In this document: positions 30,217-64,000 of the stretch, one piece after another
How the letters are laid out: each line of letters opens with the position of its first letter
How positions within the stretch are numbered: position 1 is the stretch's first letter
Source of the DNA: Bryum argenteum
Lineage: Eukaryota > Streptophyta > Bryopsida > Bryales > Bryaceae
Direction: 5' to 3'
NCBI GenBank assembly: GCA_037043015.1
Contig: CM073326.1
Coordinates: 19,662,345-19,726,344 of the forward strand
Length of the DNA stretch: 64,000 nt
Notes under the pieces: generated by a model
What the model saw: the letters and a program-made list of their open reading frames with translations, nothing else
Database searches by the model: none
What the model was told of the DNA's origin: nothing
Translations under genes and position numbers: made by a program

Positions 30217-30232
30217 CCGAACTAAGGTCGAC

Positions 30233-35336: not shown

Positions 35337-35439
35337 GTCTGCGGCCGCAGACCTCTGGGTCTCCCCTCGAGGCAAAGGTCTGCGGCCGCAGACCTCTGGG
35401 TCTCCCCCTCGAGGCAGAGGTCTGCGGCCGCAGACCTTT
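35337..35439. repeat. Three tandem palindromic units (copy B)
   Basis: All three 20-bp palindromes and their linkers are preserved without change in copy B, although the flanking GT14 fragment shows several copy-to-copy differences. Confidence 0.9.
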
Positions 35440-35647
35440 GGGTCTCCCCACTTGACACACACAGCTTCTTCTTATACTCTTCGCTCCACATATGGAGGTC
35501 TTTTCTGTGTGCTTCGGTAGCTGAATTGAGAGGACCTCTATACATTTCAAGGAAGCATCGACTCGGCAGAAGCACTTACCAAGAGGTGGTGCGGAGCTAG
35601 GCTACACGAACCATGTACAAACCGTCTGTCCGTCAAGTCAAGTGAGT

Positions 35648-41435: not shown

Positions 41436-42146
41436 CTGCAAAATAGTATACAAGTTTTTAGTATTAGAATAGATATTTAATATATATTGGTTGAATTTTT
41501 ATAGTCTTATTAGGTATTGATATTCCAGTGTGTATTTTAAGCATATATATACAAGTTTGTGTATATATGTAAATATATAATACATAATATTTTATCATAT
41601 TTTCTTGATCTAAACATGTATAAAACTATGAGATATAAACAAAGTTTCAAGTATTATATTTATTAAATTTGCATCAATAAAAGAGGAAATTTTGTCAAGT
41701 TTTTGTAAAACCTCTAGTTTCACGAATATATGAGGGAGGGAGCAAGTGCGGTTTTCAAAGGCCATGGGCGGTTTTCCTCAATACTGTGTTAATGGTAAAC
41801 ATCCAACGGTCAATTTTTGGATCGGTACTTTAAAATAGTCTGAGATACAAGATCTTACGGTTAGAAGTTCTAAAAAACAAGAAAAAAAATTGTTCATTCC
41901 CCCGGGAGTGCATAGACGTAGAAAATCGCAGTTTGAGGTTTTAAGCCCTCAAAAAAACACCAAGGAAATTTAGGGGTTAATCACATTCCCATATTATTTT
42001 GAGATGTTAAACTAATTGCAAAATAATGTAGTCATGTGGACAATTTTCTTTACTTATATTGGTAATAATTGCAAGATAACATAGTCATCTGGATAGTTTT
42101 TTTACTTAAATTGGTGTTTGGTTTGTGTATGCCTCAATGTTGTAAT

Positions 42147-46022: not shown

Positions 46023-46033
46023 TGACCCCTAAG
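46023..46033. repeat. Left target-site duplication of the LINE (11 bp)
   Basis: TGACCCCTAAG here is repeated exactly at 58855-58865. The empty site in copy A reads TGGCCCCTAAG at 15898-15908, one base different. Confidence 0.93.
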
Positions 46034-46801
46034 GAGTTTGTAGTGAGCCTCGGTTGTTCTTCTTCTTGGACTTGTAAGAGAGAGCGCATGGAGACGAAGC
46101 GGCTCTGAGCCTCGCAGGGATTGAGTGAAGGACGAGTCTCGGAGGATGCTGGGCGCCTGGGTTTTGCCTCTCTTTTGGCTGTGGGATCGTTTGAACAAGG
46201 CAGCTGGGGATACTCACAACCACAACAGACAAACACTGGCGAACCTCTGCTGGAACTGAATCAAGTGTTGGATTGTATCATCATATGCGGTGCAGTGTTG
46301 GCACCTCCTCGCATACTTGCAGGCTGGGCTGCGGCACAATATCGATTCAGGAGCTTCCTCGGTGCTACTCTTCCAGATCTCTAATCACTGCGACTTCTAA
46401 GCAACTTTTCAACAAGCGTTCTACCCTTAGCATCTCATAGAACACATAGATCTAGCTCTCCATCTCGCACTTAGCTACCGATTTAGTTGTCCATTATCAC
46501 CTTCAAAGCTTTGAGTTTTGAATAGTCACGAGATCCGATATTCCCGGATCCACTGCTCCAAGATCTCCAACAAGGCAACAACGGAGCACCACCGAAGTAG
46601 CAAAGCCCCTTCACCAACCACCTGCCAACAAACGAACACAAGAGCAGCAATAGTACGTCGCACGTTGCAGCCAAGCACAACGTTGGGCATCACCGAAGCA
46701 GCACAACCCGTTTGTCTTCTGCACAGAGCCCACGCGCACACTTAAGATCTTCACACAATACAAAGGTACGCATCTAACCAAGCACAATTCAATTTCATTG
46801 C
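46034..46801 (+). promoter_or_regulatory. LINE 5' UTR, presumed to hold the internal promoter
   Basis: About 770 bases of balanced composition without a long reading frame. Full-length LINEs usually start transcription from within this region. A possible donor (AAAG|GTACGC, about 46763) and an acceptor (AAACAG|ATGG at 47059) would splice directly to a candidate ORF1 start; this is only a sequence match. Confidence 0.5.
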
Positions 46802-48742
46802 ATGTCTTTACTTATTTTCTTGACCATTCATCTTCTGAGTAGTCTGAGCACCCCATGTAATGCCTCGAGGACCTCTGCCTCGAGGAGGGACAATGCTTGG
46901 CCTTCCAGGACATTAGAAACACACTCCAATCCTAAAACACAAGCATGTGGACAAAACTCAACTACTCAGCAATTCTTTGACAAATCTAAACATACACTTA
47001 TAAGTCTAGAGGAAATATACTACATAATTGTGCTACACCCCATGTTATCACTTAAACAGATGGCAGGATCCACTCGCTCTAGCGAACACTCGCACAACTC
47101 CTCACAGATCCCGGAAGAAATTGAAATGGAAGATGCGATGCACAACACCAAACGCGACTCTTCAAACTCCGGCAAATCTGCACACAAAAAGGCCAGAGCG
47201 TCAAGCAACACAATTCTCTCCAAAGGTGCCCAAGTCAACATCGATTTCTGGTACGGTTTCCCTGTAATGGAAATACTAGCATACGAAGCCAATGTCCCCC
47301 CTTTCAGCCTCAAAGCATCGGCAGAAGAACTGATCAAAGAAGGATATGTAGCCAGTGAGGTCGAAGAATTGCAGAAAGGACGCATGTCCTTTCCTCGGGT
47401 TCTGCAAAAGCTGTGGCCAACGGAGAGGCCTGACAACATTGAGGGACAACACTACAACATTACGCAGCTGCCGTTTGATATTGAGGTAAATCCAATCACA
47501 AAACTTTCCCTTGACTATCATATCCTCCTACAATTCGAGAAACCAGCGACAACCTTTAGTCATGACCAGATCATGAAAAAACTGCTTCTACGTTTCTCAG
47601 ATATGGGAATAGCCCTAGGGACACAGATAGGAGAACCCATTGCAGTTTTGTGCCAAGGCCCAAAAAACGCCAGAATCTGGTCTGGCATGGCCAAAGTCCA
47701 TCTGAAAAAACCCAAAGCAGATGGAATCGCCCTCCTACGAGGAACTAGAATCTTTGCCATCTCCTTAGATGATGACGTGCTCACCATAGCTAAAGTAGCT
47801 AAATCCTATGACCCAATAGCACCAACCAACCTGCTGACTGTGAAGATCCAGACAGAGAACATCAGAGAATTAGAGCCTCATCAACTTCTCCAAACTGTAG
47901 TAGAAGAAAGCTTTAAACGTGGACACGAGTTTGAGATTACTCAAGCTCAAAAAAACCCTAGAGAAGCGTATGGGTGGCTTACCACCACTTCCCCAGAGCA
48001 AGTCGCCAAAGTTGGCAGGTACCGAATCCCAGTACACGGTGAACTCCTCTCGCCCGTAGTTCCCTCGGAGGACAAGATGTCCAGAGAAGACATTATCAAA
48101 CGGAATTGCTTAGTTCTCATAGCCAAGGGATTGAATCTCACAAAATCTATAGAAATCACTACAGACACCCTGAAAACCTTTATAGGTCCCAAAAACGTTT
48201 CATCGATTTTCTATCCTAGGGCGAAAGAAACAGTGCACAACGGCGTTGCCAACATAGAATGTCTCAACGCAACAGTCTACAAACAGTTTCTACGCAAGTC
48301 AGTGAAACTCAATGGGAAGTGGATAGAGCTACAACCGCATCCTAACAGCTTAAACGAAAGTGCGCGACCCGACGATGCAACCCTCCGCAAACTTGGATTT
48401 GCAGATATTGACACCGCCATGGCCAACACTGTTGCAGCACTCCAAAACGCCCCCAACACAGCTCCAAAGCCGCTCACGAAGAAGGATATCACTGCAATTG
48501 TCGAGGAGGTCGTCACCAAAGAAAACAGCAAGCTGCGCCATGAGTTTAAAGCGGACATGACTACTCTCCACAGCGAAATGAGTGCGGAGGCGAAAGATTA
48601 TGCTGATCAAAAGCATTTGGAGCTCCAGACAGCGTTAACAAACCTGGAACAAGTCCTAGGGCAGAGCATGCAGGTGTTGAAGAACATCGTGCGCCCCGCC
48701 CTCCCAGCTCCATCCTCCGGCAGCAAGCCAAACATGCTCTGA
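46802..48742 (+). CDS. LINE ORF1 protein (RNA-binding type)
   Basis: The frame is open for 646 codons. The likely start is the ATG at 47060 (MAGSTRSSEHSHN, giving 560 residues), because the codons before it look non-coding and an acceptor-like AAACAG sits right at that ATG. The middle (residues 430-550 of the long form) looks like an RNA-recognition fold with an RNP2-like NCLVLIAKGLNL and an RNP1-like NGVANIECLNATVYKQFL. The C-terminal 100 residues (TKENSKLRHEFKADMTTLHS and on) are predicted coiled coil, fitting trimer or multimer formation. No CCHC knuckle is seen. ORF1 proteins coat the element RNA as an RNP. Composition is balanced, unlike ORF2. No frame break. Confidence 0.8.
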   Translation: MSLLIFLTIHLLSSLSTPCNASRTSASRRDNAWPSRTLETHSNPKTQACGQNSTTQQFFDKSKHTLISLEEIYYIIVLHPMLSLKQMAGSTRSSEHSHNSSQIPEEIEMEDAMHNTKRDSSNSGKSAHKKARASSNTILSKGAQVNIDFWYGFPVMEILAYEANVPPFSLKASAEELIKEGYVASEVEELQKGRMSFPRVLQKLWPTERPDNIEGQHYNITQLPFDIEVNPITKLSLDYHILLQFEKPATTFSHDQIMKKLLLRFSDMGIALGTQIGEPIAVLCQGPKNARIWSGMAKVHLKKPKADGIALLRGTRIFAISLDDDVLTIAKVAKSYDPIAPTNLLTVKIQTENIRELEPHQLLQTVVEESFKRGHEFEITQAQKNPREAYGWLTTTSPEQVAKVGRYRIPVHGELLSPVVPSEDKMSREDIIKRNCLVLIAKGLNLTKSIEITTDTLKTFIGPKNVSSIFYPRAKETVHNGVANIECLNATVYKQFLRKSVKLNGKWIELQPHPNSLNESARPDDATLRKLGFADIDTAMANTVAALQNAPNTAPKPLTKKDITAIVEEVVTKENSKLRHEFKADMTTLHSEMSAEAKDYADQKHLELQTALTNLEQVLGQSMQVLKNIVRPALPAPSSGSKPNML

Positions 48743-48900
48743 GCAGCAACTCCATCGCAGAAGCGCAAGCACCACCGAAGCAGCCTCAAAACACCAAAAA
48801 AAACATACAACAATGCAACAAGAGAAGCCGTAGAAGCTGCCTCGAAAATGGCGTCAGTCACCATCAGCACGTTGCCCAGCCAATCACTACTCAGGGACAC

Positions 48901-50685
48901 ATGTCCCTACAATCATTACCTTTATGTCTCTTCATCGATATTATCTTATATTGCTGTTATAATTATTTCACGTTTTTATATTTATATTTTTATTTCGTTT
49001 ATTACCATATTAATATTCCATATTTTATTGATATTTTTCTCACATTTTTTATTTATTACAAATACTATTACCTATGGTATTACTATCTCTTGGACCCCAA
49101 CCAAAACACTATATTCCCCTATTTTTTCTACAAATACAATGTTATACTTATTCTACAAACACTCTTAAGTATCATCCTAACTACACCCCTTCACCCTAAC
49201 TTTTGCTTTCATACTCTTTATAGGCTTTCACATACACACCTCTCATTCAACAAAACCACCCTCAAAGTCTCAAAACACACACCCTTTCACCCTAACTTTA
49301 GCATTCTTATCTCTTACACGCACCTACACACCAAATCAATTCTAAAAACCCCAAAAAAAATATCAAAACTTCCACACACATATAACTCACACGCAAAAAT
49401 AAGTCGCACACAAATCCCAAAACCAAAAACTACATATAGCCTATTTACAAACACTATCATCCATATTCTATACACAAAAACGACATCACCACTATCCCAA
49501 AATAGAAGACAAACACAAACATACGCCACACATATGAAGATTGAGCGCCCTCTCAAATATACCAAAACAACCCTAAATATCACATCACATAAACAAAACA
49601 CCGTTTTACTACAAACACTATACTCCCTACTTATAAGCAACCTACTCACACGCTTACATCTATCTATGCACAAAACACCTGACATAATAACAATCAACAA
49701 CAACAAACAAACAACTCAACTACAAACACACAAAACCACACAAGATGTATCAATAACCCAAAAACAACACATTATATACCACAACGAAACAACAAACCCC
49801 TTCGTACCCTATATAACACCCTACAATAATCAAACAATAAAATCCCAAACCCACGCCACCCAAATCCAACACATCACCAAAAACAAACAACGCCTAAAAA
49901 CAACTAATAGAATTCCCAAGTCAACAAAACTACACCATATAAATACCAAAACCCCTCCACTTAACAAATCTCGCAACTTACAAAGTTATACCAAAAGACA
50001 AACAAAAAACCAGCACTACATCAACTCCACTCAGGATACTATAAATAAAAGTCGCACCAACATATACATACATCAAAAACAAGCTTGGCCCCTCAGCCTG
50101 GCCATAATTAAAAAGTCACATCAACTACCCTATCCCAACCATTTATACTACCCTAAATGGCTACAACTACTTGGCCTTACCAAACTACAGACAAACACAC
50201 TATACTCTAAAACACACACAAAACATACAAAAAAACATGCACCCTTACGTACACAAATCAACATCAAAAGACCTTACGGCACCCAAGCTAATCCCAAAAC
50301 ACTTCACACATCCTACCAACGCACCAAACCAATACAAACGACTTCAAAAAAACGCAAATATAACAACACATTCATTATAAACCACCATAAAAATGCTCAA
50401 CCTCTCATACTTGCATTTCCAAAGTCACACCAAACTCCAATCGATACAACAAAGAAAACAAGCAACACAAACAATGACAAACACAACACTAAAACCTACA
50501 CAAAACACATAAACAACCATACCCAAACATTATACAAAGATAAAACCAACACCAGAATCACCCACACTAAAAGAAACCAAATCCGCACCACCAAATCCAA
50601 ATCATCCAACGTTATAAACATTAGACAGCGAAGCACACACACACACACAACCAAGCTCGGCCTCCCGGCCTCGCCTGTAGACTAA
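48901..50685 (+). CDS. LINE ORF2 N-terminal part, 594 residues, no known domain
   Basis: A 594-codon open frame in an A/C-rich, G-poor strand. TAA would be frequent in such DNA, so the open frame argues for real coding. Residues 1-70 are extremely rich in Tyr, Phe, Ile and Leu and could form two or three membrane or amyloid-like segments; the rest is rich in Thr, Asn, His, Lys and Gln. A short motif is repeated inside: QAWPLSLAIIKKSHQLP (near 50090) and AQPLILAFPKSHQTP (near 50395). The frame ends just after a (CA)8 tract (50634-50649). In the next frame, the reading is open from 50625 through the 2A motif and endonuclease, so this part and the EN-RT part were probably one polyprotein. A start in another frame at 48848 (MASVTISTLPSQS) is also possible. 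Confidence 0.65.
   Translation: MSLQSLPLCLFIDIILYCCYNYFTFLYLYFYFVYYHINIPYFIDIFLTFFIYYKYYYLWYYYLLDPNQNTIFPYFFYKYNVILILQTLLSIILTTPLHPNFCFHTLYRLSHTHLSFNKTTLKVSKHTPFHPNFSILISYTHLHTKSILKTPKKISKLPHTYNSHAKISRTQIPKPKTTYSLFTNTIIHILYTKTTSPLSQNRRQTQTYATHMKIERPLKYTKTTLNITSHKQNTVLLQTLYSLLISNLLTRLHLSMHKTPDIITINNNKQTTQLQTHKTTQDVSITQKQHIIYHNETTNPFVPYITPYNNQTIKSQTHATQIQHITKNKQRLKTTNRIPKSTKLHHINTKTPPLNKSRNLQSYTKRQTKNQHYINSTQDTINKSRTNIYIHQKQAWPLSLAIIKKSHQLPYPNHLYYPKWLQLLGLTKLQTNTLYSKTHTKHTKKHAPLRTQINIKRPYGTQANPKTLHTSYQRTKPIQTTSKKRKYNNTFIINHHKNAQPLILAFPKSHQTPIDTTKKTSNTNNDKHNTKTYTKHINNHTQTLYKDKTNTRITHTKRNQIRTTKSKSSNVINIRQRSTHTHTTKLGLPASPVD
50634..50649 (+). repeat. (CA)8 microsatellite at the frame switch inside LINE ORF2
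   Basis: Upstream of this tract one frame is open back to 48901; downstream another is open on to 54005. The frames overlap only from 50625 to 50685, which contains this tract. A gain or loss of one or two bases by slippage, or a miscall of the repeat length, would explain the switch. Confidence 0.75.
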
Positions 50686-50924
50686 ACGCGATATATAAAA
50701 CGCTCTCAAAACAAAATATCGTAAAAATCCAATTAACATGCTTAATAACAATCAAATACAACATCCTAACATTAACAACACAAGAATCATCAATCAACAA
50801 CCAAAGTCCAACGCACCCCAATAGACATACAAAACTCACTCCCCTTACCAAAGCCACTATTCACAATAACAGAAAATCCATTAGCCCTATCCTACTTTAT
50901 ATATATTCTTTACATACAAGTACA

Positions 50925-53900
50925 ATGATTAGTCAACATACCCATACCAAAATCAATCCAGACATAAATACAATACACAAACACCCACACTCCGTAACAT
51001 ACACCCCACACACCATTCACCTCAAATACCCACACACCTATGACAACTCCAACAATACCACAAAACAAGAACAAATATACACATACACACACTACCAAGT
51101 TAACACTCTCTTCATACACAAAGTATGGCACATACCCAACTTTAACACATACACCCCTACATGTTTACAAACTTGCAAACATCCTCACTTAGAGACACCA
51201 AAAAAAAAAGTATACAGAGGCAAAGTCATACCAAACTATCTCTTCTTACCCCTATGTGGCGATATTGAGTCTAACCCAGGGCCAATGCCAAATGTTCTAC
51301 ATTTCCACCCTGCATTACACAGACGGCATAGTCGGACCTACTTCATCCCTAGTTCAATAATACTTTACCCCGAATACAAGCACCTAGCAGCAACGTTCTC
51401 TTCCACCATACAAACTAACCACCCTCAACATCAAAATAGCTGCAATGACTACCCATGCCTCACAAGTTACATCCACAACCACCTACACTTCCCTCCCCCG
51501 AATATAATCTACGCTCTCATAACCACCATAGGACCACAATTGAACCTCTGTGAACAAACAATAATGACAAATCCAAATCCTTACTGGACAACAACCCTAC
51601 TTAACAAACTATCACGTCTCCCTAATGCTCCCTCGAGACATTTAAACACTCCACACCCTTACACCCACTTTCAACAAACCAACGAACATCTTATCACACC
51701 AACAAAATCCATTCACAAGGAAATTTATAACCACATCTTGGAACCAGACACCGACACCTCCATCCAAGCACTTAAAACAACGTTTCCATACTTACCTGAA
51801 ACACTACTAATTGAAGCTACACGATGCAAAGAACACCTTCCAGAATACTCACACCCGCCCCCACTACCGCCCACCTACCCCATCAACCCCCAACCTCAAT
51901 TTACTATCCAATTAAATACCGAAATCATCACTTGGAACGCAAGCTCCCTAAACTCGGCCCTCCCTAATCTACACAAAATCACACTAAATCTCCCTGCAAT
52001 CATTACCATCCAAGAAACAAAACTCACCGCCAACAAATCCACAAAATACATCCAACGCATGCTACCACAATACAAACTCATTTTCAATAACACACATGCA
52101 TTAACCCGATGCTTACAACAACGTATGCCATACACTCCAACCAGAGGAGGCCTTCTCACTCTTATACACCAAAACTACGCTTCTCCGGGAAACATTACGA
52201 AGATTCCAACCCCGGTCAACATCTCTCCATACCTCCAAATTATTCACATAGCAAACAAACCCCTCACCCCATGGTTACTCATCCACTTATATATGCCATC
52301 TCACCCAGCAGACATAATATTAATCCCCCTAATTCAACAAACAATCACCACCCAATTACAAACACACCCAAACCATATCCATATTCTTTGCGGAGACTTT
52401 AATAGAGACATTGCTCTAAATGGTAGACAAAACGCACACACCAATACACCGCCACAAGACGAAGATACTCAATGGCGAGCATTCACTGATAATCTTAATC
52501 TTACATATATTCCCACAAATAGCTCATTCTCCAGACAAGGCGGACATAATTATGCCGAAACAAGCCTTATTGACGGTTATTACATAACCACCACAAATTC
52601 CCATCTTTTCACATCTACAACCAATCACACTCTAGAATTAAACTCAGATCACTCACCAGTATCTCTACATATTCCTCAACAATTGCTCATAGCAAGACCT
52701 CCACCAATAACAACCCCAAAACCTCCACGAGTTCTCAACCCCATCCCCCAAGCTAACCTAAACACATTCACCACCACATATTTTGAGTATAATGCACTCT
52801 CCATCAATGACCTCACAACAACTTTGCAAAAAGATCAACTCACCCCCACAGAATGGACCACGGCTTGCGTGCAATTAGACCACCTCATCCACAACATTAC
52901 AAAAACACTACTAACCACATGTTCCGCCCCCCCTATCCCTACCCTCACCACACAAACCAACCTTCAAGGGGGCTTTCTCCCACGAAAATCACAAAGAGAA
53001 TGGAAAAAACACCTTTCTACATACCATCTAACCCGAAAAACAATCTACATTGCTAACAACAATGACAATTGGAGAACGCACCCAATATTACAAGTTACAC
53101 AACAACACACACATACAAACATACCACCACCCCCAGTAATGGACGATACTAAGCAAGAATGGCTAAATGCATTAGCAGACATAGCTAAAACCGCAAACAA
53201 GAAAGCAAGAGCCATTACCACAAAATATACACGTCAATCTATAAAAAAAGCCATAACTAAATACAGACAACTCTATAACACGAGCCCTAAGAAAATAAAC
53301 AACCGTGTGTTCAAAAACCTAGAAACACCACCACTCGACTGTATCACCGCACGCAACAACAAAATCCTCACTAGCCCAGAAGATATAGCCCAAGAAATCT
53401 TTTTACAACAATCACTCACTAATCGCCCTACCGTCCCAACATGTTACTATCAACCAGAACACTCTATAAATTGTACATGTGCAGTCCGCCAATATCCATG
53501 GCATGAATTAGATGGATTTACACTTGAAAAACGAGGCACCCCAGAAACCCCTCTCCATACATACTTTACCTGTGAAACCTTCGACATATGCCTAAAAAAT
53601 CTCTCACATAACAAAACCCCTGGCCCCGACAAGATTCCTAACACCATCCTCAAACATATGCCAGATTCCTTCCAAACACTCCTATATCACTTTTTCTCTC
53701 ACTGTTACAAGCAAAAACAAATACCCGCATCATGGAAAACAAGTCTTACAATTTTACTATACAAGAAAGGCAACCCCTCACTTCTCCCTAACCACAGACA
53801 TATTGCCTTAGCCAACAAATATATAAATTGTTTACCAGCACTCTTACATTTATTCTATCAGCCTACGGAGAACACCACCAAATCCTTCATGATAGCCAAG

Positions 53901-54005
53901 AAGGCTTTCGCGCCGAAAGAAGTACCGCACGACAAATTCAACTTATCACAGCTGCACTTGAAGATGCTAGAATTACAAATCAAGATATCTATATTATGTA
54001 CATAG
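50925..54005 (+). CDS. LINE ORF2 middle part: 2A motif, APE endonuclease, start of RT
   Basis: 1026 codons from the ATG at 50925, although the frame is open back to 50625. Residues 106-120 are a 2A-like motif (51240-51284). Residues 333-582 (51921-52671) are an APE-type endonuclease with ITWNASSLN, IQETKL, CGDFNRDI, LIDGYYIT and SDHSPVSL, so the catalytic Asn, Glu, Asp/Asn and the SDH triad are all present; it would nick the target for target-primed reverse transcription. The last part (NKTPGPDKIPNTIL, PASWKTSLTILLYKKGN) begins the reverse transcriptase. The frame is lost near 53815-53826, at an A/T-rich run where the next frame reads on as IYKLFTSTLT. A single small indel explains this. Confidence 0.93.
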   Translation: MISQHTHTKINPDINTIHKHPHSVTYTPHTIHLKYPHTYDNSNNTTKQEQIYTYTHYQVNTLFIHKVWHIPNFNTYTPTCLQTCKHPHLETPKKKVYRGKVIPNYLFLPLCGDIESNPGPMPNVLHFHPALHRRHSRTYFIPSSIILYPEYKHLAATFSSTIQTNHPQHQNSCNDYPCLTSYIHNHLHFPPPNIIYALITTIGPQLNLCEQTIMTNPNPYWTTTLLNKLSRLPNAPSRHLNTPHPYTHFQQTNEHLITPTKSIHKEIYNHILEPDTDTSIQALKTTFPYLPETLLIEATRCKEHLPEYSHPPPLPPTYPINPQPQFTIQLNTEIITWNASSLNSALPNLHKITLNLPAIITIQETKLTANKSTKYIQRMLPQYKLIFNNTHALTRCLQQRMPYTPTRGGLLTLIHQNYASPGNITKIPTPVNISPYLQIIHIANKPLTPWLLIHLYMPSHPADIILIPLIQQTITTQLQTHPNHIHILCGDFNRDIALNGRQNAHTNTPPQDEDTQWRAFTDNLNLTYIPTNSSFSRQGGHNYAETSLIDGYYITTTNSHLFTSTTNHTLELNSDHSPVSLHIPQQLLIARPPPITTPKPPRVLNPIPQANLNTFTTTYFEYNALSINDLTTTLQKDQLTPTEWTTACVQLDHLIHNITKTLLTTCSAPPIPTLTTQTNLQGGFLPRKSQREWKKHLSTYHLTRKTIYIANNNDNWRTHPILQVTQQHTHTNIPPPPVMDDTKQEWLNALADIAKTANKKARAITTKYTRQSIKKAITKYRQLYNTSPKKINNRVFKNLETPPLDCITARNNKILTSPEDIAQEIFLQQSLTNRPTVPTCYYQPEHSINCTCAVRQYPWHELDGFTLEKRGTPETPLHTYFTCETFDICLKNLSHNKTPGPDKIPNTILKHMPDSFQTLLYHFFSHCYKQKQIPASWKTSLTILLYKKGNPSLLPNHRHIALANKYINCLPALLHLFYQPTENTTKSFMIAKKAFAPKEVPHDKFNLSQLHLKMLELQIKISILCT
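51240..51284 (+). other. 2A-type ribosome-skipping motif (GDIESNPGP) in LINE ORF2
   Basis: The peptide LFLPLCGDIESNPGP fits the 2A consensus D-[VI]-E-x-N-P-G-P with the usual hydrophobic/Cys-Gly run before it. In viruses and several animal and trypanosome LINEs this motif makes the ribosome release the upstream product between Gly and the last Pro and go on translating. Here it lies between the unknown N-terminal part and the endonuclease, the place where separation would make sense. Confidence 0.82.
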
Positions 54006-56317
54006 ATTTCAAAAACGCCTTTGGATCTCTAGATCACGCTAGACTTCTAGCAATAATGAAAGATCTTGGCTACCCAGAAGAAGCTGTTGCGCTAGTTAGT
54101 AATATCTACTCTCACTCCACCACCACATATATAGGAGAACATTTCGGTCAAACAAAACCAATTCCGATTCAACGTGGAACCATACAAGGGGACACATTAA
54201 GCCCATACCTCTTTATCATATTTTTAGAACCCCTCCTTAGATGGTTGCAACGGGGAAACTATGGATATAAATTTGGCACATCAAACACAACCATCAATTC
54301 TGCTGCATATGCTGATGACCTAGTTGCACTCACCTCTACCCTCCCAACACTACAAACAGAAATGAACAAAATAGAGAAATTCAGTGAATGGACAGGCCTC
54401 GAAGTTGGCACACAAAAATGTGCAGTAACAGGATGCCCAAATAAATCCAAACTCACACCCACAGCTTTCAAAAGCCTCCTTCAGACACAAAATATCAACT
54501 ACAAAAATGAGTCACTACCAACGCTACACCAGAACGAAGCCTATCCCTATTTAGGCATCCAAGTGGTTCCGACACTCAAATGGAAACTACAAACGCACCT
54601 CACAACCAAACAACTTACTGAGCAATGCCTAAAACTCTCTAATTGTCCAGCCACAATCAAACAAAAGATTAGCATGGTGGATATAGTAATACGCGCGGGC
54701 ATTGCGTATAGCTTTTATGCAGTACCTTACTCATTACCAATGATCAAAAAACTAGACAATAAAATCTCCAGCATCCAAAAAACTATATGTGGTTTACCTA
54801 AATGTACAACAAATATTATAGCACAATTACCACACGTAGACTTCGGTCTTGAAGCATTTTCCCTTAAAAATGCTTACCTCAGATGCATTGGAGACCAACT
54901 AATAAATGCACTCAATGATAAAGGCAAACTAGGCCCAATTTACCAAGGCCTTATCCAACACATTCTAGCAAAATTTGGTGGATCCAAAGAAATTCCTCGC
55001 ATAAAACACAATGATTGCATTCACTCTCCAATCACAAGAACACTCTTCTTACTCAAAGAAGCTGGTGGAATCCACCTAAAAAGCACACTTGAAAACTTCC
55101 AACTAGACGCCACAGAATTAGAAACACAATGGATGTCCCAAGCATCAAGCCGTTTGCCTCACCTTGATCCCAAATTATCCCTCAAACTATTACATAAGCT
55201 CTTGCGACACAAAATATACAAAATAAAACACCTCACACTACCAAATGGAACCACCCTCATGTCACCCATAGATTTTAGAACATATTATCAAAACCCTACA
55301 AAATTAGAAAGAAGTGCACTAAATTTAGCACAACAACTCTTCTGCAAGAACAATTGTACTCACGAATGTTCAAACCCGTGCAATACACACCCACCAACCC
55401 ATCTTCTAGTTAACGAATATACAATACAGAATCATGAAATATCTCCCCTTACTCCTCCACCTCCAGCACACCCAACTCTCCCACCAATAACATCAACAAT
55501 ACCCCCACCCAAAAAAATCATCAATGACCCCATCAACTATCCCATACACCATATCTCTGCCCACAAAATAGTTACCAAAATAGTCAAATACAACATAACA
55601 CACACCTCTAACATGTATATATGCCATTGGGAAATAAATAACCACCCTACATACCACACTTGGCTATCTCCTAAAGAATTATTTCCCCCTAACTACCCAA
55701 CAGCCAGAAGACATAATCTTAACCTTTTATTTGACTATTATACACAACAAAAACACAAACTGTATAGACACATCATTAACACTTGTTTTACACCACCACA
55801 AATAAAAGACACCCGCTTCATCCCACCCCCAACACACATACCTCTTATACGAATTCATCTCCAAGACTGCAACCCAGACAAAGACATCCTCACAACCTCC
55901 CCCACCATACAAGTCCTCAATGAAACCGCACACTTATTTGACAATACCGGTCATTTCCTCCTCACCATCCCCACCTCAAGACTTACGTGGCTATGGATGC
56001 AATATCACTCATGCCTCCACACTAACCACGGGCTAACCCCCCCCCCCACCCAATCATTTGAAACTGAAATTATTATGCTATATAAACGATATAATCACAC
56101 TCTATCCAAGCGTAACCCCAAAACAACAAACCACCACACCCTCCCTACTACAATAATTGACACACTTATCACAACTTTCCAAATTACACACACATATTTT
56201 TCCTCCCCGGTAACCTGCCCACTACAACTTACAGAATACTACTCCATATTCCCACGTGACAAAATATTTGGCTCTAGTGGCTTGGCCTTTCAATTTAAAT
56301 GGCATGGCATTGGATAG
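53828..56317 (+). CDS. LINE ORF2 continued: RT core, Cys cluster, chromodomain-like segment, methyltransferase-like domain
   Basis: 829 codons in the frame that continues RT after the break. RT motifs are complete: SQEGFRAERST, YIMYIDFKNAFGSLDH, IQGDTLSPYLF, AYADDLVAL (YADD at 54308-54319) and GLEVGTQKCAV. A Cys/His cluster (CKNNCTHECSNPCNTH) lies at 55343-55390. Residues 576-640 look like a chromodomain (55553-55745). From 56057 a PCIF1-like methyltransferase begins and runs into a single TAG at 56315-56317. The same frame is open again immediately after the stop, through the MTase remainder, RNase H and zinc finger. The TAG may be an inactivating change or an error next to a long C run. Confidence 0.92.
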   Translation: MFTSTLTFILSAYGEHHQILHDSQEGFRAERSTARQIQLITAALEDARITNQDIYIMYIDFKNAFGSLDHARLLAIMKDLGYPEEAVALVSNIYSHSTTTYIGEHFGQTKPIPIQRGTIQGDTLSPYLFIIFLEPLLRWLQRGNYGYKFGTSNTTINSAAYADDLVALTSTLPTLQTEMNKIEKFSEWTGLEVGTQKCAVTGCPNKSKLTPTAFKSLLQTQNINYKNESLPTLHQNEAYPYLGIQVVPTLKWKLQTHLTTKQLTEQCLKLSNCPATIKQKISMVDIVIRAGIAYSFYAVPYSLPMIKKLDNKISSIQKTICGLPKCTTNIIAQLPHVDFGLEAFSLKNAYLRCIGDQLINALNDKGKLGPIYQGLIQHILAKFGGSKEIPRIKHNDCIHSPITRTLFLLKEAGGIHLKSTLENFQLDATELETQWMSQASSRLPHLDPKLSLKLLHKLLRHKIYKIKHLTLPNGTTLMSPIDFRTYYQNPTKLERSALNLAQQLFCKNNCTHECSNPCNTHPPTHLLVNEYTIQNHEISPLTPPPPAHPTLPPITSTIPPPKKIINDPINYPIHHISAHKIVTKIVKYNITHTSNMYICHWEINNHPTYHTWLSPKELFPPNYPTARRHNLNLLFDYYTQQKHKLYRHIINTCFTPPQIKDTRFIPPPTHIPLIRIHLQDCNPDKDILTTSPTIQVLNETAHLFDNTGHFLLTIPTSRLTWLWMQYHSCLHTNHGLTPPPTQSFETEIIMLYKRYNHTLSKRNPKTTNHHTLPTTIIDTLITTFQITHTYFSSPVTCPLQLTEYYSIFPRDKIFGSSGLAFQFKWHGIG
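55343..55390 (+). other. Cys/His cluster C-x3-C-x3-C-x3-C-x2-H in LINE ORF2
   Basis: Four Cys at regular four-residue spacing and a nearby His, between RT and the chromodomain-like segment. Possibly metal-binding; it does not fit the common CCHC knuckle. Confidence 0.4.
55553..55745 (+). other. Chromodomain-like segment in LINE ORF2
   Basis: ISAHKIVTKIVKYN, then YICHWEINNHPTYHTWLSP, then LNLLFDYYTQQK follows the chromodomain pattern: a first strand with an aromatic or Ile start, the Y-x-[VI]-x-W core, the T-W-x-x-x-x-x-L step and a closing helix. Chromodomains bind methylated histone tails and, in chromoviruses, guide insertion. Short domains are easily over-called, so this is a moderate call. 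Confidence 0.5.
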
Positions 56318-56595
56318 GCCCACCCCCACAACGATGAAACCGCTCAACAAACCATACATTGGGCCAGATTAGCCGCGCAACATGATCAAAACGCCACAAC
56401 CATTGTTGTCATGCTAGACAAACAATGGTTCCACAATCCTACACCCTACTCCACTGAATTCCCAGATACGCACATTTTAGCACATTTTGCAGCTGATACA
56501 ATAACATATGAAGAACCCACCATACCCGCTAGTCACACAAAACCCCGCACTGAACCAAACACAATCCAAATCCTCTGCATCCACCACAAACGCCA
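56057..56595 (+). other. PCIF1/CAPAM-like adenosine N6-methyltransferase domain in LINE ORF2
   Basis: YFSSPVTCPLQLTEYYSIFP followed by RDKIFGSSGLAFQF lines up, position for position, with the PCIF1 core as I remember it (FASPFNCYLRQYCSAFPDTD then GYFGSRGPCLDF). Further matches are the preceding helix pattern (ETEIIMLYKRY, LPTTIIDTLIT), the following amphipathic helix with a hydrophobic strand (ATTIVVMLDKQW against LSFIVFIPEW), and a final strand (TIQILCIHH against TAVLFLQND). The catalytic NPPF equivalent reads AHPH and touches the TAG at 56315, so this copy may be inactive or mis-sequenced at a C run. PCIF1 methylates the first transcribed A of capped mRNA (m6Am). Confidence 0.65.
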
Positions 56596-58297
56596 TAATA
56601 TCACTACCCCAACAGAAGTACAAAACCTTACAACCACACTTCAAAACCTCTCTATCACACAATTCCGGCTCCAAGAAATTCCTTCTACCCCTGTAAATAC
56701 CACGGTCAACAAAAACAAAAACTGGACGAAACTAATATATCCTCCACTTTATACAGTAGATTTCTCAAATACACCTCCACTACCACAATCCAATACAAAA
56801 CCCCCTATCAAATTCCCTCCTCAATATAGTTATTACACAGACGGCTCTTTTACACCCCCCCAAGAAACATCCTCCGGCCATTGGCTACCTGAAACCGCTG
56901 GCTATGGCATTTACAACCCGACCAAAATAGATATACAAATCTCCAAAAGATTACCGGGCCTCCAAACAATCTTCCGAGCAGAACTTATGGCAATATACAA
57001 AACACTCAAAATCCTTACAACAAAATACATAGACGAACCTGCACATATCTTCACAGACTGCATAAATTGTTTATACGTGATACAAACACATTTAATTCAC
57101 CCTACGATACAAAATAACCACCCATATCGAAATACTCTCATTGACATCACTAACATGCTGAAAATACGCACACAACCTACCACATTCCATAAAGTAAGAG
57201 CCCACGTCAACATCTCTGGAAATGAAAAAGCAGACAAACTCGCGAAAGAAGGAAACGTAAAAAACTACAAATTTGCCCGTAAACCACATGAATTCGCACA
57301 TACCACCCCTTTCTATTTCCAAAAAGACATATGGCCTGGACCACACCATAGGCCAGATAAGGGCCCAGTGAGATGCCTCTCTACATACCTCACCAAATAT
57401 GACCGAGAAAACAACCTCAACATTCTAGCACAAAATTTTCCTAACATAAATAAATGGACATCAAATCGAGATATTCATGCAGAATCTTCAAATGCCTTTT
57501 GGAATAACCCAAAAATCACAGATTCCCAAATAACTAGCATATTAAAATTTCGTACTGGACAATATATGGGCCATGCCCGCAAACAACTATTCTTTGGACA
57601 CACTCGGTTTCCTTCAAAGACATGCCCTATATGTAAATCCACAGATGCAGACACGTGGCTACACGTACTACTTAAATGCCCCCAACCAAACATCCACGCA
57701 CTCAGAGTTACCAGACATAACCAGGCAGTTAAATCCATCAAACAACTCATCCTATCGAATACCAAATCAAGATGCTACACACTCATAAATGCAGGAAAAC
57801 ACCTCAACACACCTCCAAATAACACAGTACCAAGTTGGCTCCTTCCTTGCACGTGCAACATAAGTCGATGCCACTGCAACGCAAGACTTCGACCAGACTT
57901 ACTATGTGTAATAGGCCTCCCACATCAAGGCACACCCCCACAACACCCCAATGATACTATCATCATCCAGTACATCGAATTCACATACTGTAACGATAGA
58001 TTCCCACACGAAACCATCACTAACAAAACCGACAAATACCAATCGCTACTAGACTCAATAGCTGCTCGTGGATGGAAAGTCAACCCACTTATAGTTATCA
58101 CCTCAGGCGCCAGAGGCACAACTCACACTCCATCCATGACCGCCTTGGAAAACACATTTAAACTCACCAAACAACCAATATATAACACATTTAAATCAAT
58201 CAATACCATAGCCATACAACACGCCGCCCTAATACTTCTACACAAACGCAAACTAGAAAACCACCAACCTCTCCCGACCAACCCAACACCACCTTAA
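56411..58297 (+). CDS. LINE ORF2 C-terminal part: end of MTase, RNase H, C2HC zinc finger
   Basis: 628 codons from the ATG at 56411, in the same frame as the part before the TAG at 56315; the frame is open from 56318. RNase H (56831-57255) has the full catalytic set: D in YYTDGSF, E in FRAELMAIYKTL, D in HIFTDCINCL, and H/D in VRAHVNISGNEKADKLAKEG. It removes template RNA after reverse transcription. A zinc finger C-x2-C-x9-H-x4-C (57623-57679, CPICKSTDADTW) matches the one after RT in many LINEs. A second Cys-rich stretch (LPCTCNISRCHCNARL) follows near 57845-57890. The C-terminal HAALILLHKRKLENHQ is shared with the truncated copy at 23.5 kb. Confidence 0.93.
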   Translation: MLDKQWFHNPTPYSTEFPDTHILAHFAADTITYEEPTIPASHTKPRTEPNTIQILCIHHKRHNITTPTEVQNLTTTLQNLSITQFRLQEIPSTPVNTTVNKNKNWTKLIYPPLYTVDFSNTPPLPQSNTKPPIKFPPQYSYYTDGSFTPPQETSSGHWLPETAGYGIYNPTKIDIQISKRLPGLQTIFRAELMAIYKTLKILTTKYIDEPAHIFTDCINCLYVIQTHLIHPTIQNNHPYRNTLIDITNMLKIRTQPTTFHKVRAHVNISGNEKADKLAKEGNVKNYKFARKPHEFAHTTPFYFQKDIWPGPHHRPDKGPVRCLSTYLTKYDRENNLNILAQNFPNINKWTSNRDIHAESSNAFWNNPKITDSQITSILKFRTGQYMGHARKQLFFGHTRFPSKTCPICKSTDADTWLHVLLKCPQPNIHALRVTRHNQAVKSIKQLILSNTKSRCYTLINAGKHLNTPPNNTVPSWLLPCTCNISRCHCNARLRPDLLCVIGLPHQGTPPQHPNDTIIIQYIEFTYCNDRFPHETITNKTDKYQSLLDSIAARGWKVNPLIVITSGARGTTHTPSMTALENTFKLTKQPIYNTFKSINTIAIQHAALILLHKRKLENHQPLPTNPTPP

Positions 58298-58309
58298 ATA
58301 AAATATTAT

Positions 58310-58391
58310 TAAAAAGAATAACAAAAAAAAAATTAAATAAAAAAATTAATTAATTAATTAATTAATTAATTAATTAATTTTTTTAAAAAAA
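58310..58391 (+). repeat. A-rich and (ATTA)n simple repeat after LINE ORF2
   Basis: A-rich DNA followed by about nine ATTA units and a T/A run. The truncated copy has a C/G homopolymer at the same place, so this junction between ORF2 and the conserved 3' end is hypervariable. Confidence 0.85.
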
Positions 58392-58394
58392 TGG

Positions 58395-58610
58395 TACAAA
58401 CCACAGTTGTTAGCAGCGCACTGCTTGTTTTAGATATCGGGTAGGGGCCGGGTGGTTGATACTGCTTTCCTGCCTTATAAACTCACAAACAGCCCCAAGC
58501 CATGCATACTGCTCCAACGAGCCCGACAAGATTCGAACTCGGACCAGAACGACTACAAACGTCCCATACTTCAACCACCCTAGGACTGCACGGCTTGGTG
58601 ACCACGAAGT
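58395..58610 (-). other. tRNA-like (Pol III promoter-like) module, antisense in the LINE 3' UTR
   Basis: Read on the minus strand, the module has a B-box-like GAGTTCGAATC (plus-strand 58530-58540) with an A-box-like TGGTTGAAGTATGGG about 35 bases before it. The same module in the truncated copy reads GAGTTCAAACC (23329-23339) and TGGTTGAGGTGTGGG (23292-23306) on the plus strand. It is one of the best-conserved parts of the 3' end between the two copies. It could be an antisense tRNA-derived SINE fused to the LINE or a structural tRNA mimic. Confidence 0.35.
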
Positions 58611-58814
58611 TCCAAAAACCACATTTAAACATTCATACCTCCTAAACAACCCCCACCACAAACCGTTTTATGTAGGTTACTCTAGACTTAGTCTACCCTC
58701 TGCCACGTGTGTCGTTAGTGTCTATTCCCGAGAGGGGTGAGTAGTTTTGTTCCTTTACCTCTTTGTCCTGTGGCCATCGAGGTAATGACATTACGAACAG
58801 ACACTGTATTCACG

Positions 58815-58854
58815 CCAATCTTCAATTGAAGAGTGGAGTTCTTATCTATCTATC
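58815..58854 (+). other. LINE 3' terminal stem-loop and (TATC)3 tail
   Basis: CCAATCTTC-AATT-GAAGAGTGG (58815-58836), then GAGTTCTTATC and TATC repeats to the insertion end. In the truncated copy the stem is CCAATCTC-TTCTTG-GAGATTGG. The stem sequence changes on both sides while pairing is kept. LINEs whose RT needs a 3' hairpin and that end in short repeats (for example eel UnaL2) have the same layout. Confidence 0.7.
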
Positions 58855-58865
58855 TGACCCCTAAG
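58855..58865. repeat. Right target-site duplication of the LINE (11 bp)
   Basis: TGACCCCTAAG, identical to 46023-46033; copy B then continues colinear with copy A from 15909 on. Confidence 0.93.
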
Positions 58866-59610
58866 TGCTTGAGCAACTATAGTATGGTTGTTGCACAACT
58901 TTTTCCCACAACCAATTCTACTCCAATTAGTGTAAGAATTGAGCAAATCCCACTTTGAAGCTCAAGTTTACTACTTTCTAACCTATCTATTTCCCTTAAA
59001 TACAACTTCGAATGCCTAATGTGATTCGAGATTTTGTTTGAAAGGTTAAATATAGTGTCAGGAAGCTTTTATTTCTATTGTTTAAGAAATTGAAGTGCAT
59101 GGAGAAAATGAGTGAAAATAAGTGAGTGAAAACTTGAGAAGTCTGAAGTGAAGTGCAATTGCAGAATGCAAGACATTGGTTGCAAGGCTTTCCACGCAGG
59201 CAGCACAAGGCATTCTGGGCAAGCTCTGCAGGTGGGCAGCCCAGGTGGCACACCCACACTCGAGGTGCGCTATTGTTCGAGGGATGACGGGGGCAGTCAA
59301 TCGCATTCTTCATTTGCCGCACGGGAGACTGATGTCGTGATCCTCGGCCACCTCCTCACTCAACTGCATTGCCTGCAATTTCGTTCCATCTCATTGCTTC
59401 GCTGCTCCTCAACACTCGTGAAGCTCCTACACTGTTCCGAGGGAGAGAGATAGCTCCAGAGAGACACACTCACCTGTCAAGAGGAGCCTCGGCTTATCAC
59501 CTGCGTCGCTTCTCTGTCTGTCTGTCTGTCTGTATCAATTGTTACATTCCTTCCTTCCTTCCTTCCTCCCTTCCTTGCTTGCTTCAGTCGTATCAGCAGC
59601 AGCAGCAGCC
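58866..59610 (+). promoter_or_regulatory. Upstream region and leader of the LRR gene, copy B
   Basis: Equivalent of 15909-16652. The LINE now separates this 745-bp stretch from the upstream DNA that copy A still has. The CT-rich leader with (TCTG)n and (TTCC)n is unchanged. One extra G is present near 59290. Confidence 0.5.
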
Positions 59611-62600
59611 ATGCGAGGGGTTTTAGCTTCCACCATCCCCTCTCCTCTTGTCTTCTCTTCCTCCTTTTCTCCTTCGTCTTCCTCTTCTTCTTCCTTCCTC
59701 GCCAATTGCCCCTCGCTCCGGCCCCATGTCGCTCTCACGCCCCGCCCCACTCCCTTACCCTCCCCTGCTATCCGTGCTGCTGCCGGTGACAATCCCCGCC
59801 CTCGCCGCTCTGTGGGTTCATCTCCTGCCACAACCCAAAAATACTACTTCAGCACGGAATCCGATGAACCGTCGTCCTCGTCCCCCTTCAATGCTGGCAC
59901 CGTGCCCTTGCTCGCTGGCGCTGCTGCTGCCCTCGGATTGGGGTTCGGTAAGGCCCGCGTCTGCAATTTGCTCTAAACCCTAAACCCAGGCAATTCTGGC
60001 TCCTTTTGCATTGAGTGGAGATTACGTTCAGAACATATTCTCGGTTTCTTATGGTGTTGCCTCCGGGGTGGCATTTTCAGTGGTGTACAAGTTCATAAGC
60101 AAGAGTGGTTGGTCGCTGAGCATGCCAAAAATGAACTCGGGAATAGAAGTAGGAGGAGCAGGAGCTGGTTCCGAGAAGAAGTTTCGTCGCGAATCCATGG
60201 CGAAATTGAATGAGTTTTCTCGAGAGCTTCGCACTTTTCGTGAAGTTGATCTATCAGGTGTTGTAACAAGATACATTCCTGTGGTTCATCTCCGTATGAT
60301 GAGTGCTTAGTGACGAGCTGTCGCTTGATAGTAGCCCAGGTCACGTCAAGTCTTCTGCTTCTTGTAGAGCAATTAGCAGTGGAGAGTGAATGGAGTTGAT
60401 TATAACTGCACCTCATTCGCTTACTCGAAGTTGGTTGAGACTCCACTTGCATAAGTGTGTAAGCGTGGCATTGTCAGTACTGTTCTCCTTTCATGACTTA
60501 GGTGGATGGTACTATGAAATTTATTGCTCTGTAGGTCGCGGATTTGGAGACGAAGGATTTATTTATTTAGCCGAGGGTTTGGCATTCAACCAGGTCAGTA
60601 GCTACTTAAAGCATATACAACGGCATATTTTCTTGTGCGGCCTGGCATTAAACAAGAGATTGACTGATGTGTAGAACCTTTTTCCAGTAGTAGCAATTTC
60701 GTGGTGTTCACTTTGCAGCAGTTCAAGCCAAGTTGTGAATGTAGCAGACTGAGATTGCATTGTCATGGCTTCAATCTTGCCATTTCTGATCTGATTCGTA
60801 CTTGCAGACGTCTCGAACTCAGACTATTTGAGGTCTATCTCGTATTGGTTCGTTTTGCTCGGAGTTACTATCGTCCTGAAAATTTTATTTTTTTGCGAGA
60901 CAGAGTGCCGAGAGTGTCGATTTTTCGGCGAATGGGATTACAGCGGAAGGCGTTAAAGCTCTGTCTCAAGTGCTACCCACGAATGCTTATCTTAAAAACC
61001 TGAATTTCTCCGGCAACAGTATTGGCGACGAGGGCACTGTGGTATGGAGCAATGGTGCAATTATTTCTGTTTTGTGGGAATATGGAGTTAATTATACCCT
61101 AGCTACTCAGAAGTCCAGGCAATCTAGGACTACTATGTTGTGGCGGAGCATTTGTTGTTACACTTTGACTCTTACTTACGTCTCCTGAGCAGACTCTCTA
61201 TACTTCTATATTGATGCTCTCACTTTGGCAGGAACTAGCAAGATTACTGGAACAGAATCAAGGGATTACAAAGCTTCAGTTGAATAGTATTAACGTTGGT
61301 GATGAGGTATGTTCCTTAATCCTATCACAGATCAATGCCTTCACTTGGAGTGCGTCTGGGTCTGCTTCCACCCGAAGTAAGGTTGCACATTCTGGTGGAA
61401 ACCGTCTGAGTTGCACCGTACTTGCTTTGGAATCACTCATCAATTTGGCCGAATCTCATCAATTTTCACACTGTGGTTTGCAGGGAGCTAAAGCCCTTGC
61501 TGAAATGCTGAAGAAGAATGTGCATATCACACACCTGGAGCTCAACAATAACGTCATTGACTATGCGGTACCACTTTCTGCCTAATTTCGCTCTTTCTGA
61601 TGTTCGTGGTTTGTCATCAATATTAGACTGTGAATTTGCAATAGCAGGAGGGTTTTTTGCAGATGGGAATGAGTGGAAGTATAGTGATCATTTTCCAGTA
61701 TTTTGCAGGGTTTTGCTGCCCTCGCGGATGCTCTAACGGCCAACAAAACTCTTCGCAGTATTCACATCAAGTGAGCCCCTTTCTTTGTTTATTATCATCA
61801 ACTTGCATAAGAGCTTCTTTCTTTCTACTGGAAGATATCGAGTGTGATGTACGGGATTGACAGGTCTCAGAGTCTAAGTCGCTCGGCTGACTTAGTTTGT
61901 TGAGTAAGATTTGAATTATGAAATTATTTGTAATGCAGTAACAACTATGGTGGTGCTCTTGGAGGTTCTGCATTTGCGAAAGGGTTGCAGGAGAACAAAA
62001 GTTTACGAGTGAGTGCTCAAGTCACTTGTTCTAGCTTTTGAATGTTCTTTAAGCGAGATCTGTTCGTTTTTCCAAACACGTTTGCTCTTGACATTTCGTA
62101 TCCTTACAGTAGATGTCCTCGTGCAGTATAAGCGTCATTGTCTCCTAGTTCGTGTTAAAATTTTAGAACATCTTAAGTGTCTCATGTGAATGCTCTCTAC
62201 TGAAAACTTTTTTTGCCTTGCTATGGGATATCTGCATGTTGTGGATCTATGAGTTGGCTACTAACCAGTACATGGATTTGACAGGAGTTGCATCTCCATG
62301 GAAACGACATGGGCAACGAAGGTATTCGAGAATTGATGGTGGGCTTGATGAGTCACAAAGGTACTTCTATGCCCCATTTCACAAGGTTTGATTTTGTAAA
62401 TTTCAAAATTTGTAAGCAAACGGTCATGTTTTCTGTGGTTGATGTATTGAGACGAATACTGTGAAGAAGGTTACATTGATATCTTAAAATCGTCTGCCTA
62501 CTAAAGTGGGACTTTAATTTGTTTCTCTTGATAGGGAAGATTTCATCATTGGACATCGGTAACAACAAAATAGGACCGAAGGGTGCGTTCCATGTCGCGG

Positions 62601-63975
62601 AATATGTAAAGAAGGTTAAAAGCCTTCAGTGGCTGAACATGTACATGAATGACATTGGTGATCAGGTTCTACTCTAGTCCTCAGCTTTCTTCAGAACTCA
62701 TAACTTTCCAGTGTCAATTGCTTCGTTCTTAGTTTTGATGACTTTGTGCCTTTTTATTTGGCATATTTTGTTGTGCTGTATTGGGTTTCCGTTATTCTAT
62801 GTGTTTCATGACGTTTTACTTGTGCACATATCTGCTCTATATCCGTCCAATCCAATTTGCGAGCTTATCTTCTTGCTGTTGTTGAATGCTCAGGGAGCAG
62901 AGAGAATAGCTGACGCCTTGAAGCGGAATAGGTCTATCGTTACAATAGACTTGGTAAGCTCCAATGGCGAGTAACCTAAAGAGCAAGCTTTCCACATGTG
63001 GTCCTCAATATCTGTTGTGCTCAAGTGCCAGTGCCACAACTGAAGTGCTCTCGTGTACGCAGGGGGGTAATAATATTTCTGCTGAAGGCACTGCCCATTT
63101 AGCAGCTGCTCTAAAAGACAACACATCTATCACCACTGTAAGTTTTTTTGTTTTGCGTAGGAATATCTTATACAGCCCTAAATGGCGGTATAGCATAATA
63201 AGGAGATGTTCACTTGAACACATCTTTCCCTATCCCGTTATGAGTTTTTGCAACTTCGTGTTTCTTGTCGAGATGACTTTCACGTATGTGTAGGCTGATG
63301 TATTACTGCCTGTGTCCTTCACAGTTTGAGTTCAGCTACAACCCCATCGGAATGAACGGTGCCAAGGTGTTGGCTGATACCCTGAAGTTCCACGGTAAAA
63401 TTGAAACACTCCGCTTAGGCTGGTGCCAGGTACTTCATTCCTACTGCTAACTAATTTAGGGAGGTCTTTACGAATATCTCGTGCTTTTCCATATTCTAGA
63501 AAGTCTCATTGTCGCATGATACTCCTGTTCGCATCTCAATTGTTAATTCTCCTGTATTCGAAAGAACAGGACTCTGACACCACAATATCTTTACATCTCA
63601 CTGTGTTGATTGTTTGGATGCGGCTCCAGATAGGGGTGAAAGGAGCGGAGGCTATTGCTGATTGCCTGCTGTACAATGCTACCATCTCAACATTAGACTT
63701 GCGTGCCAACTCCCTTGGTGATGATGTATGGACCTGAGCTCTTCAAGCTTGCATACAGTGGACTATAGAGTCAATGTGTAGAATAGGAAGTCGGATGAAT
63801 ATCATTCCGGTTTAGAGTCTAGAATATTAGGTTACGTTGTTGGATGATGAATGTTGTATGCTTTCTCTGACAAATGAATTTGTGGGAAAAACAGGGTGCG
63901 AGTGTGTTGGCGAAAAGTTTGAAAGTAGTCAATGAGCATTTGACGTCACTTGACCTTGGCTTCAACGAAATCAGG
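59611..63975 (+). CDS. Plastid-type RNI leucine-rich-repeat protein, EMB2004-like (copy B, first 15 of 17 exons)
   Basis: Exons: 59611-59947, 60021-60257, 60535-60593, 60904-61041, 61232-61306, 61484-61567, 61709-61770, 61939-62008, 62285-62360, 62535-62665, 62894-62953, 63063-63137, 63325-63429, 63630-63725, 63895-63975. The last two exons lie beyond the window. All visible exon bases equal those of copy A, and the donor after exon 3 is a normal GT (60594). Copy-to-copy differences in introns are limited to an extra G near 61346 and a T-run length near 62212. As read, this is the copy expected to splice normally, but it carries the LINE 0.75 kb upstream of its start codon. Confidence 0.85.
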
Positions 63976-64000
63976 GTGAGACTCTGGCATAATCAGTACA

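Follow-up and report, generated by a model that had tools for sequence, protein, structure and literature searches.

Long interspersed nuclear elements (LINEs) must select their own RNA and copy it through to its 5′ end, and how they sense that end is, to our knowledge, an open question. PCIF1/CAPAM methylates capped mRNAs at their first base. Among the closest described systems, the Dualen/RandI group of LINEs combines an apurinic/apyrimidinic endonuclease (APE) and a restriction-like endonuclease (RLE)-type enzyme with a reverse transcriptase (RT) and RNase H (PMC4640811, PMC3636483). SymbioLINE-Dnmt of dinoflagellates, the nearest precedent we came across for a LINE with a captured methyltransferase, is known from many copies evolving under purifying selection, in which a cytosine DNA methyltransferase is encoded by an open reading frame (ORF) that precedes the one for RT (PMC5890265). 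In a 64,000-nucleotide stretch of Bryum argenteum contig CM073326.1 (the window, in whose coordinates all positions are given), we found a young, full-length LINE that encodes an ORF1, followed by a 2A motif, an APE, an R2-like RT, a PCIF1-like domain, an RNase H, a CCHC knuckle and an RLE-type motif. In this PCIF1-like domain the opening half of the methyltransferase core is retained, FGSSG included, but the catalytic NPPF is not. Its landmarks are as follows.

56042–56419, + strand: PCIF1/CAPAM-like methyltransferase domain (PF12237), firm up to 56299 and weak after the TAG.
56267–56281, + strand: FGSSG, aligned at the FGSRG position of PCIF1.
56315–56317, + strand: in-frame TAG, from frame reading.
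56318–56329, + strand: AHPH at the place of the catalytic NPPF (MAFFT; phmmer aligns HPHN, one codon later).

An initial annotation, made from the letters of the window, had proposed that a LINE here carries a PCIF1/CAPAM-homologous domain between RT and RNase H, and had staked this on a significant match to a profile of PCIF1 or of some other SAM-dependent methyltransferase. The search of 24,736 Pfam models bore the proposal out. In the stop-free piece before the TAG, PF12237 (PCIF1_WW) matched 56042–56299 with an E-value of 3.5e-11 and 43.4 bits, above the curated cut-off of 31.1, and the domain is flanked by matches to RT (PF00078, E 4.3e-26) and RNase H (PF00075, E 9.8e-15). A shorter piece gave an E-value of 1.8e-12, and reading the TAG as X extended the match over 56042–56419 (E 3.6e-13, 49.9 bits); as a yardstick, a 151-residue PCIF1 fragment (PDB chain 6irx) scores 225 bits against the same model. 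PCIF1_WW is regarded by other authors as a misnamed CAPAM-like methyltransferase family (PMC7641849). When 177,635 PDB sequences were searched with phmmer, PCIF1 ranked first (6irx, E 0.0012) and second (6irv, E 0.0018), with modest E-values. SSPVTC, the YYSIFP region, FGSSG and the VVML strand were collinear with PCIF1 in both phmmer and MAFFT alignments, in the order the annotation had given; the ILCIH strand falls outside the part of PCIF1 that could be aligned.

A single sequence of low identity (26% to the PCIF1 fragment in the MAFFT alignment) could in principle owe its likeness to chance. However, an E-value of 3.5e-11 among all Pfam models, together with the independent PDB ranking, makes chance similarity hardly credible. 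Aligned with the first half of the PCIF1 fragment, the pre-TAG part reached a score of 78, a value equalled by none of 5,000 shuffles (shuffle mean, 22.9), which rules out chance for this half; the post-TAG part was matched by about 2.7% of 5,000 shuffles. The separate searches on either side of the TAG that the annotation had called for thus gave a divided answer, a match above the cut-off before the stop and no Pfam family for the post-TAG piece alone. As judged from these comparisons, homology to PCIF1 is firm for the first half of the domain and suggestive for the second.

A recent landing of a host PCIF1 gene copy in the element, without any part in it, would be a different origin for the same similarity. 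The domain lies in frame with RT and RNase H, and the third-codon G content is about 5% within it both before and after the TAG, as compared with 5–7% in the rest of ORF2 and 20% in ORF1. Because the domain shares the base composition of ORF2 and is only 26% identical to the PCIF1 fragment, recent capture of a host gene is unlikely, and we consider such a landing highly improbable.

The age of the insertion bears on whether the catalytic motif was lost in this copy or before it. The inserted LINE spans 12.8 kb at 46034–58854 (+ strand; the right boundary is uncertain by one base). It lies in one of two copies of a segment of about 21 kb that is present twice in the window, at 1–21042 and at 30217–46033 plus 58852–64000, with approximately 99% identity. 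The features that define the insertion and its relative in the window are the following.

46023–46033, no strand: left target-site duplication, TGACCCCTAAG, from flank comparison and the empty site.
58855–58865, no strand: right target-site duplication, TGACCCCTAAG, from flank comparison.
58298–58854, + strand: 3′ untranslated region (UTR) ending in (TATC)n, with an identical end in the second family copy.
22986–23669, − strand: second family copy, 5′-truncated (C-terminal 46 residues plus 3′ UTR), with its own 11-bp duplication, AAGTTTTATGA, and a (TATC)n end.

In the other segment copy the 11-bp sequence that flanks the element on both sides occurs once, at 15898–15908, with one base different. 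The extra 12.8 kb in one segment copy, the 11-bp duplication and this empty site together indicate that the element arrived by LINE insertion. The two segment copies differ by 74 substitutions in about 21 kb (64, 7 and 3 in the three aligned blocks; approximately 0.35%) and by 64 gap openings (55, 6 and 3 per block). Either the segment is (tandemly) duplicated in the genome, or the assembly has joined two haplotypes.

At the place of NPPF, the domain reads AHPH or HPHN depending on the aligner, and either is at least 3 base changes away from any [DN]PP[FYW] motif (codons counted by hand). The annotation had correctly placed AHPH beside the TAG; it had also suggested that the element encodes a cap methyltransferase, of which this copy might be an inactive example. 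That the family encodes an active cap-adenosine methyltransferase marking its own RNA, with damage limited to this copy, is in keeping with the clear PCIF1 homology, the retained FGSSG motif and the position of the TAG next to the altered motif. However, when the divergence between the segment copies is taken as the rate, the insertion being younger than the segment split, the probability of at least 3 changes in the 12 motif bases since insertion is about 1.2e-5, falling to 1.6e-6 if the rate is halved, whereas the same element retains the signature motifs of its APE, RT and RNase H and of the candidate RLE. Because changes after insertion are so improbable and the motifs of the other modules are intact, the change to NPPF probably predates the insertion and goes back to the source element. 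The TAG may have a different history: 13–26 substitutions are expected in ORF2 since insertion, of which 4.3% each give a stop, or 0.6–1.1 new stops, so that a single TAG fits decay after insertion. The suggestion of an active cap methyltransferase is therefore not supported, with the motif reading AHPH and an insertion age that argues against damage of this copy alone. Activity elsewhere in the family would still be compatible with a source that was itself a defective copy moved in trans, and we rate an active enzyme as rather unlikely.

Methylation of DNA or of internal RNA, not of the cap, would also place a methyltransferase in a retrotransposon. Methyltransferases are known in LINE and DIRS elements, and the dinoflagellate cytosine enzymes have been proposed to act on cDNA in DIRS and on RNA in LINE elements (PMC5890265). 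However, PCIF1_WW was the only Pfam family matched in the region and the catalytic motif is altered, and we regard this alternative as very unlikely.

Rather than an active methyltransferase damaged in this copy alone, we favour a domain without catalytic activity, which possibly binds the cap or RNA. The domain would have been captured long ago from a PCIF1/CAPAM protein, and the catalytic motif would have been lost in an element ancestral to this copy, as the age of the insertion suggests. It may now act without catalysis, as an RNA-binding module of the replicase, and might keep the element's RNA, perhaps gripped at the capped 5′ end, within the RT complex, which would give an advantage to the element's own RNA or to copying over the full length. 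We put forward this combined reading, of an old PCIF1/CAPAM-derived, now non-catalytic domain that most likely holds the element RNA in the RT complex, tentatively, at a little short of an even chance. Cap binding is suggested by analogy, because in PCIF1 the 7-methylguanosine (m7G) site is situated where the helical domain adjoins the methyltransferase domain, between the two (PMC9916840). Fly PCIF1 that is catalytically dead retains its binding to the C-terminal domain of RNA polymerase II (PMC9916840), and PCIF1 has been claimed to have a role in cells that does not depend on methyltransferase activity (PMC12896973). PCIF1 is routinely inactivated by mutating the N and F of NPPF (PMC10544176), and in Drosophila PCIF1 the F of NPPF is changed to H and flies are without N6,2′-O-dimethyladenosine (m6Am) (PMC9479742).

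Several observations weigh against this reading. The cap-holding helical domain of PCIF1, which the proposal of an active cap methyltransferase would likewise call for, was undetected: there was no Pfam match in the 640 bases upstream of the PCIF1-like domain, neither to a WW domain nor to any other family, and the PDB alignment begins at the methyltransferase core. The post-TAG part scored only 31 against the second half of PCIF1 (shuffle mean 20.9, p 0.027, 5,000 shuffles). A single-sequence AlphaFold2 model of the methyltransferase region had a mean predicted local distance difference test (pLDDT) value of 36.5, too low for a fold search. The honey-bee also lacks m6Am though its PCIF1 motif differs only by F to Y, and the link between motif and mark is therefore not strict (PMC9479742). 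The source copy may itself have been defective and mobilised in trans by the protein of another element, in which case its motif would say little about the family. Finally, within the window the PCIF1-like domain is known from one family copy; the methyltransferase region is absent from the only other one, the 5′-truncated copy at 22986–23669.

A further alternative is a vestigial domain, captured long ago and since deprived of catalysis, which would now merely separate RT from RNase H without being used and would be in the course of disappearing. The altered motif, the weak second half and the TAG inside the domain all fit such decay. However, the first half scores well above the Pfam cut-off and the RT-bearing frame is open from 53792 to the TAG, continuing in the same frame to 58297. 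A vestige is unlikely in our estimation, yet to be taken seriously beside the favoured RNA-holding module. Broader still is the proposal that a dual-endonuclease lineage of plant LINEs carries in its replicase a PCIF1-derived domain by which its own RNA is recognised at the capped 5′ end or, in members that are intact, marked there; we offer it as a possibility, and a doubtful one.

The dual-endonuclease (Dualen/RandI-like) layout and the 2A motif are features beyond those in the initial annotation. The remaining parts of the element are arranged as follows.

47060–48742, + strand: ORF1, 560 residues, unbroken, without a Pfam match.
50925–58297, + strand: ORF2, with its predicted start at the first ATG of the frame, one frameshift near 53813–53830 and one TAG, from frame analysis.
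51261–51284, + strand: putative 2A/StopGo motif DIESNPGP, the sole match in six frames of the window.
51927–52451, + strand: APE-type endonuclease (PF03372, E 4.8e-05), with QETK at 52011, GDFN at 52392 and SDH at 52644.
53813–54562, + strand: reverse transcriptase (PF00078), with YADD at 54308–54319.
55571–55663, + strand: possible chromodomain-like stretch between RT and the PCIF1-like domain, from a home-made profile and suggestive only.
56825–57253, + strand: RNase H (PF00075), with TDG, AEL, TDC and HVNISGNEKAD present.
57623–57679, + strand: CCHC zinc knuckle, CX2CX9HX4C, from the motif pattern.
57890–58039, + strand: putative restriction-like endonuclease motif, RPD...E...KX2KY, from a pattern search.

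If ORF2 starts at 50925, about 112 leader residues precede DIESNPGP. From the end of ORF1 onward the RNA strand is G-poor (48743–58297, 6.5–12% G in blocks). The frameshift near 53813–53830 may reflect decay or an assembly error, the latter being possible because the segment copies also differ by their 64 gap openings. The APE match, at 23.6 bits, falls 0.9 below the curated cut-off for PF03372, and all three catalytic motifs are present; the region also matches an exodeoxyribonuclease III model (E 2.7e-4). The nearest solved relatives of the RT are R2 proteins (5.3e-27), ahead of chains named LINE-1 ORF2 (3.9e-13). When the chromodomain-like stretch was scored together with 2,000 shuffles against the home-made profile, it came third, in a tie for second place, scores being listed for 1,601 of the 2,001 sequences; it had no Pfam match, and its sole PDB match looks unrelated.

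RPD is part of the core of LINE restriction-like endonucleases. The order RPD...E...KX2KY was found in 7 of 20,000 shuffles of the C-terminal part, with gap ranges chosen after sight of the sequence, and the parts of the pattern also occur singly, KX2KY at 52035 and 55577 and RPD at 57350 and twice in ORF1. Neither PDB nor Pfam gave a match in the RLE region, and the C-terminal region, modelled by AlphaFold2 without relatives, reached a pLDDT of 38.6, too low for a fold search. The KX2KY motif has been described for LINE restriction-like endonucleases, and the published spacing of the LINE knuckle is CX2-3CX7-8HX4C, so that the knuckle here is one residue longer (PMC5678591). Matches to NCBIfam models were weak or partial only.

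The second family copy is 77–80% identical to the 12.8-kb element at the DNA level in two aligned blocks. Over the 46 codons that the two copies share, 14 codons show silent and 11 residue-changing differences, and 19 of the 33 base differences fall at third positions, a pattern that hints at constraint on this end of ORF2. Within the stretch of 3′ UTR common to both copies (58400–58600), a B-box-like sequence was seen by eye on the − strand, and this stretch may be related to a tRNA-derived short interspersed nuclear element, as its sequence suggests. ARAGORN, run with the bacterial code, called no tRNA in the window, and no Rfam family reached its gathering score within 46000–58900. Elsewhere in the window, a 782-residue open frame with DUF7869 (E 2.1e-53) at 39087–41432 is split in the other segment copy into frames at 8870–10252 and 10256–11212. 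The window also encodes acyl-carrier proteins (PF00550), whose N-terminal extensions resemble plastid transit peptides by eye, in keeping with a plant genome.

Searches for relatives covered prokaryote and virus collections, where single-sequence scans reach close relatives only and absence says little. No relative was found in viral contigs with the methyltransferase region, the RT, the post-TAG piece, a two-row alignment with PCIF1 or the PCIF1 fragment as queries, nor in prokaryote genome contigs with the methyltransferase region or the RT. By tblastn there was nothing in phages (methyltransferase region, PCIF1 fragment) or in plasmids (RT). A lead to PCIF1-like enzymes in phages (PMC7824862) was followed and set aside: the protein named there is annotated as a DNA N-6-adenine methyltransferase (Pfam Dam), PF12237 had no match in the named record (14 control genomes were also empty) and two queries of PHROGs returned none. 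Among the matches listed for openly licensed PMC papers, in their titles and the starts of their abstracts, there was no LINE with a PCIF1-like domain, and we have weak evidence that such a LINE is previously undescribed.

If a domain derived from a cap enzyme does form part of a replicase, it would offer a concrete handle on how LINEs sense the 5′ end. A PCIF1-type domain kept in a retrotransposon without its catalytic motif would likewise bear on non-catalytic roles of PCIF1, and cap recognition, if real, would link cap identity to cis-preference and full-length copying.

The combination of APE, putative RLE-type motif and RNase H corresponds to the layout of the Dualen/RandI group, to which we would assign the element by layout, following the published descriptions. 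It differs from that group by the PCIF1-like domain and the 2A motif, neither of which is mentioned in the excerpts of those descriptions. 2A sequences reportedly occur in APE-type LINEs, to go by the title of a 2013 study by Odon; the element resembles these in having a 2A motif, here a putative one in a dual-endonuclease layout. Natural use of 2A in plant viruses is practically none according to a recent survey (PMC12846837). With PCIF1/CAPAM itself, the domain has in common the methyltransferase core, as seen with Pfam and PDB, and the FGS.G motif, but it has AHPH for NPPF and no detected WW or helical domain, and it sits in a retrotransposon polyprotein. Catalytically dead Drosophila PCIF1 is likewise a family member with an altered NPPF that has been kept, in that case by the host, but it is a cellular gene whose motif differs only by F to H. 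In SymbioLINE-Dnmt, by contrast, the captured enzyme is of the cytosine type and precedes the RT ORF in many copies, whereas in the Bryum element the PCIF1-like domain lies inside the RT ORF, in the one copy seen.

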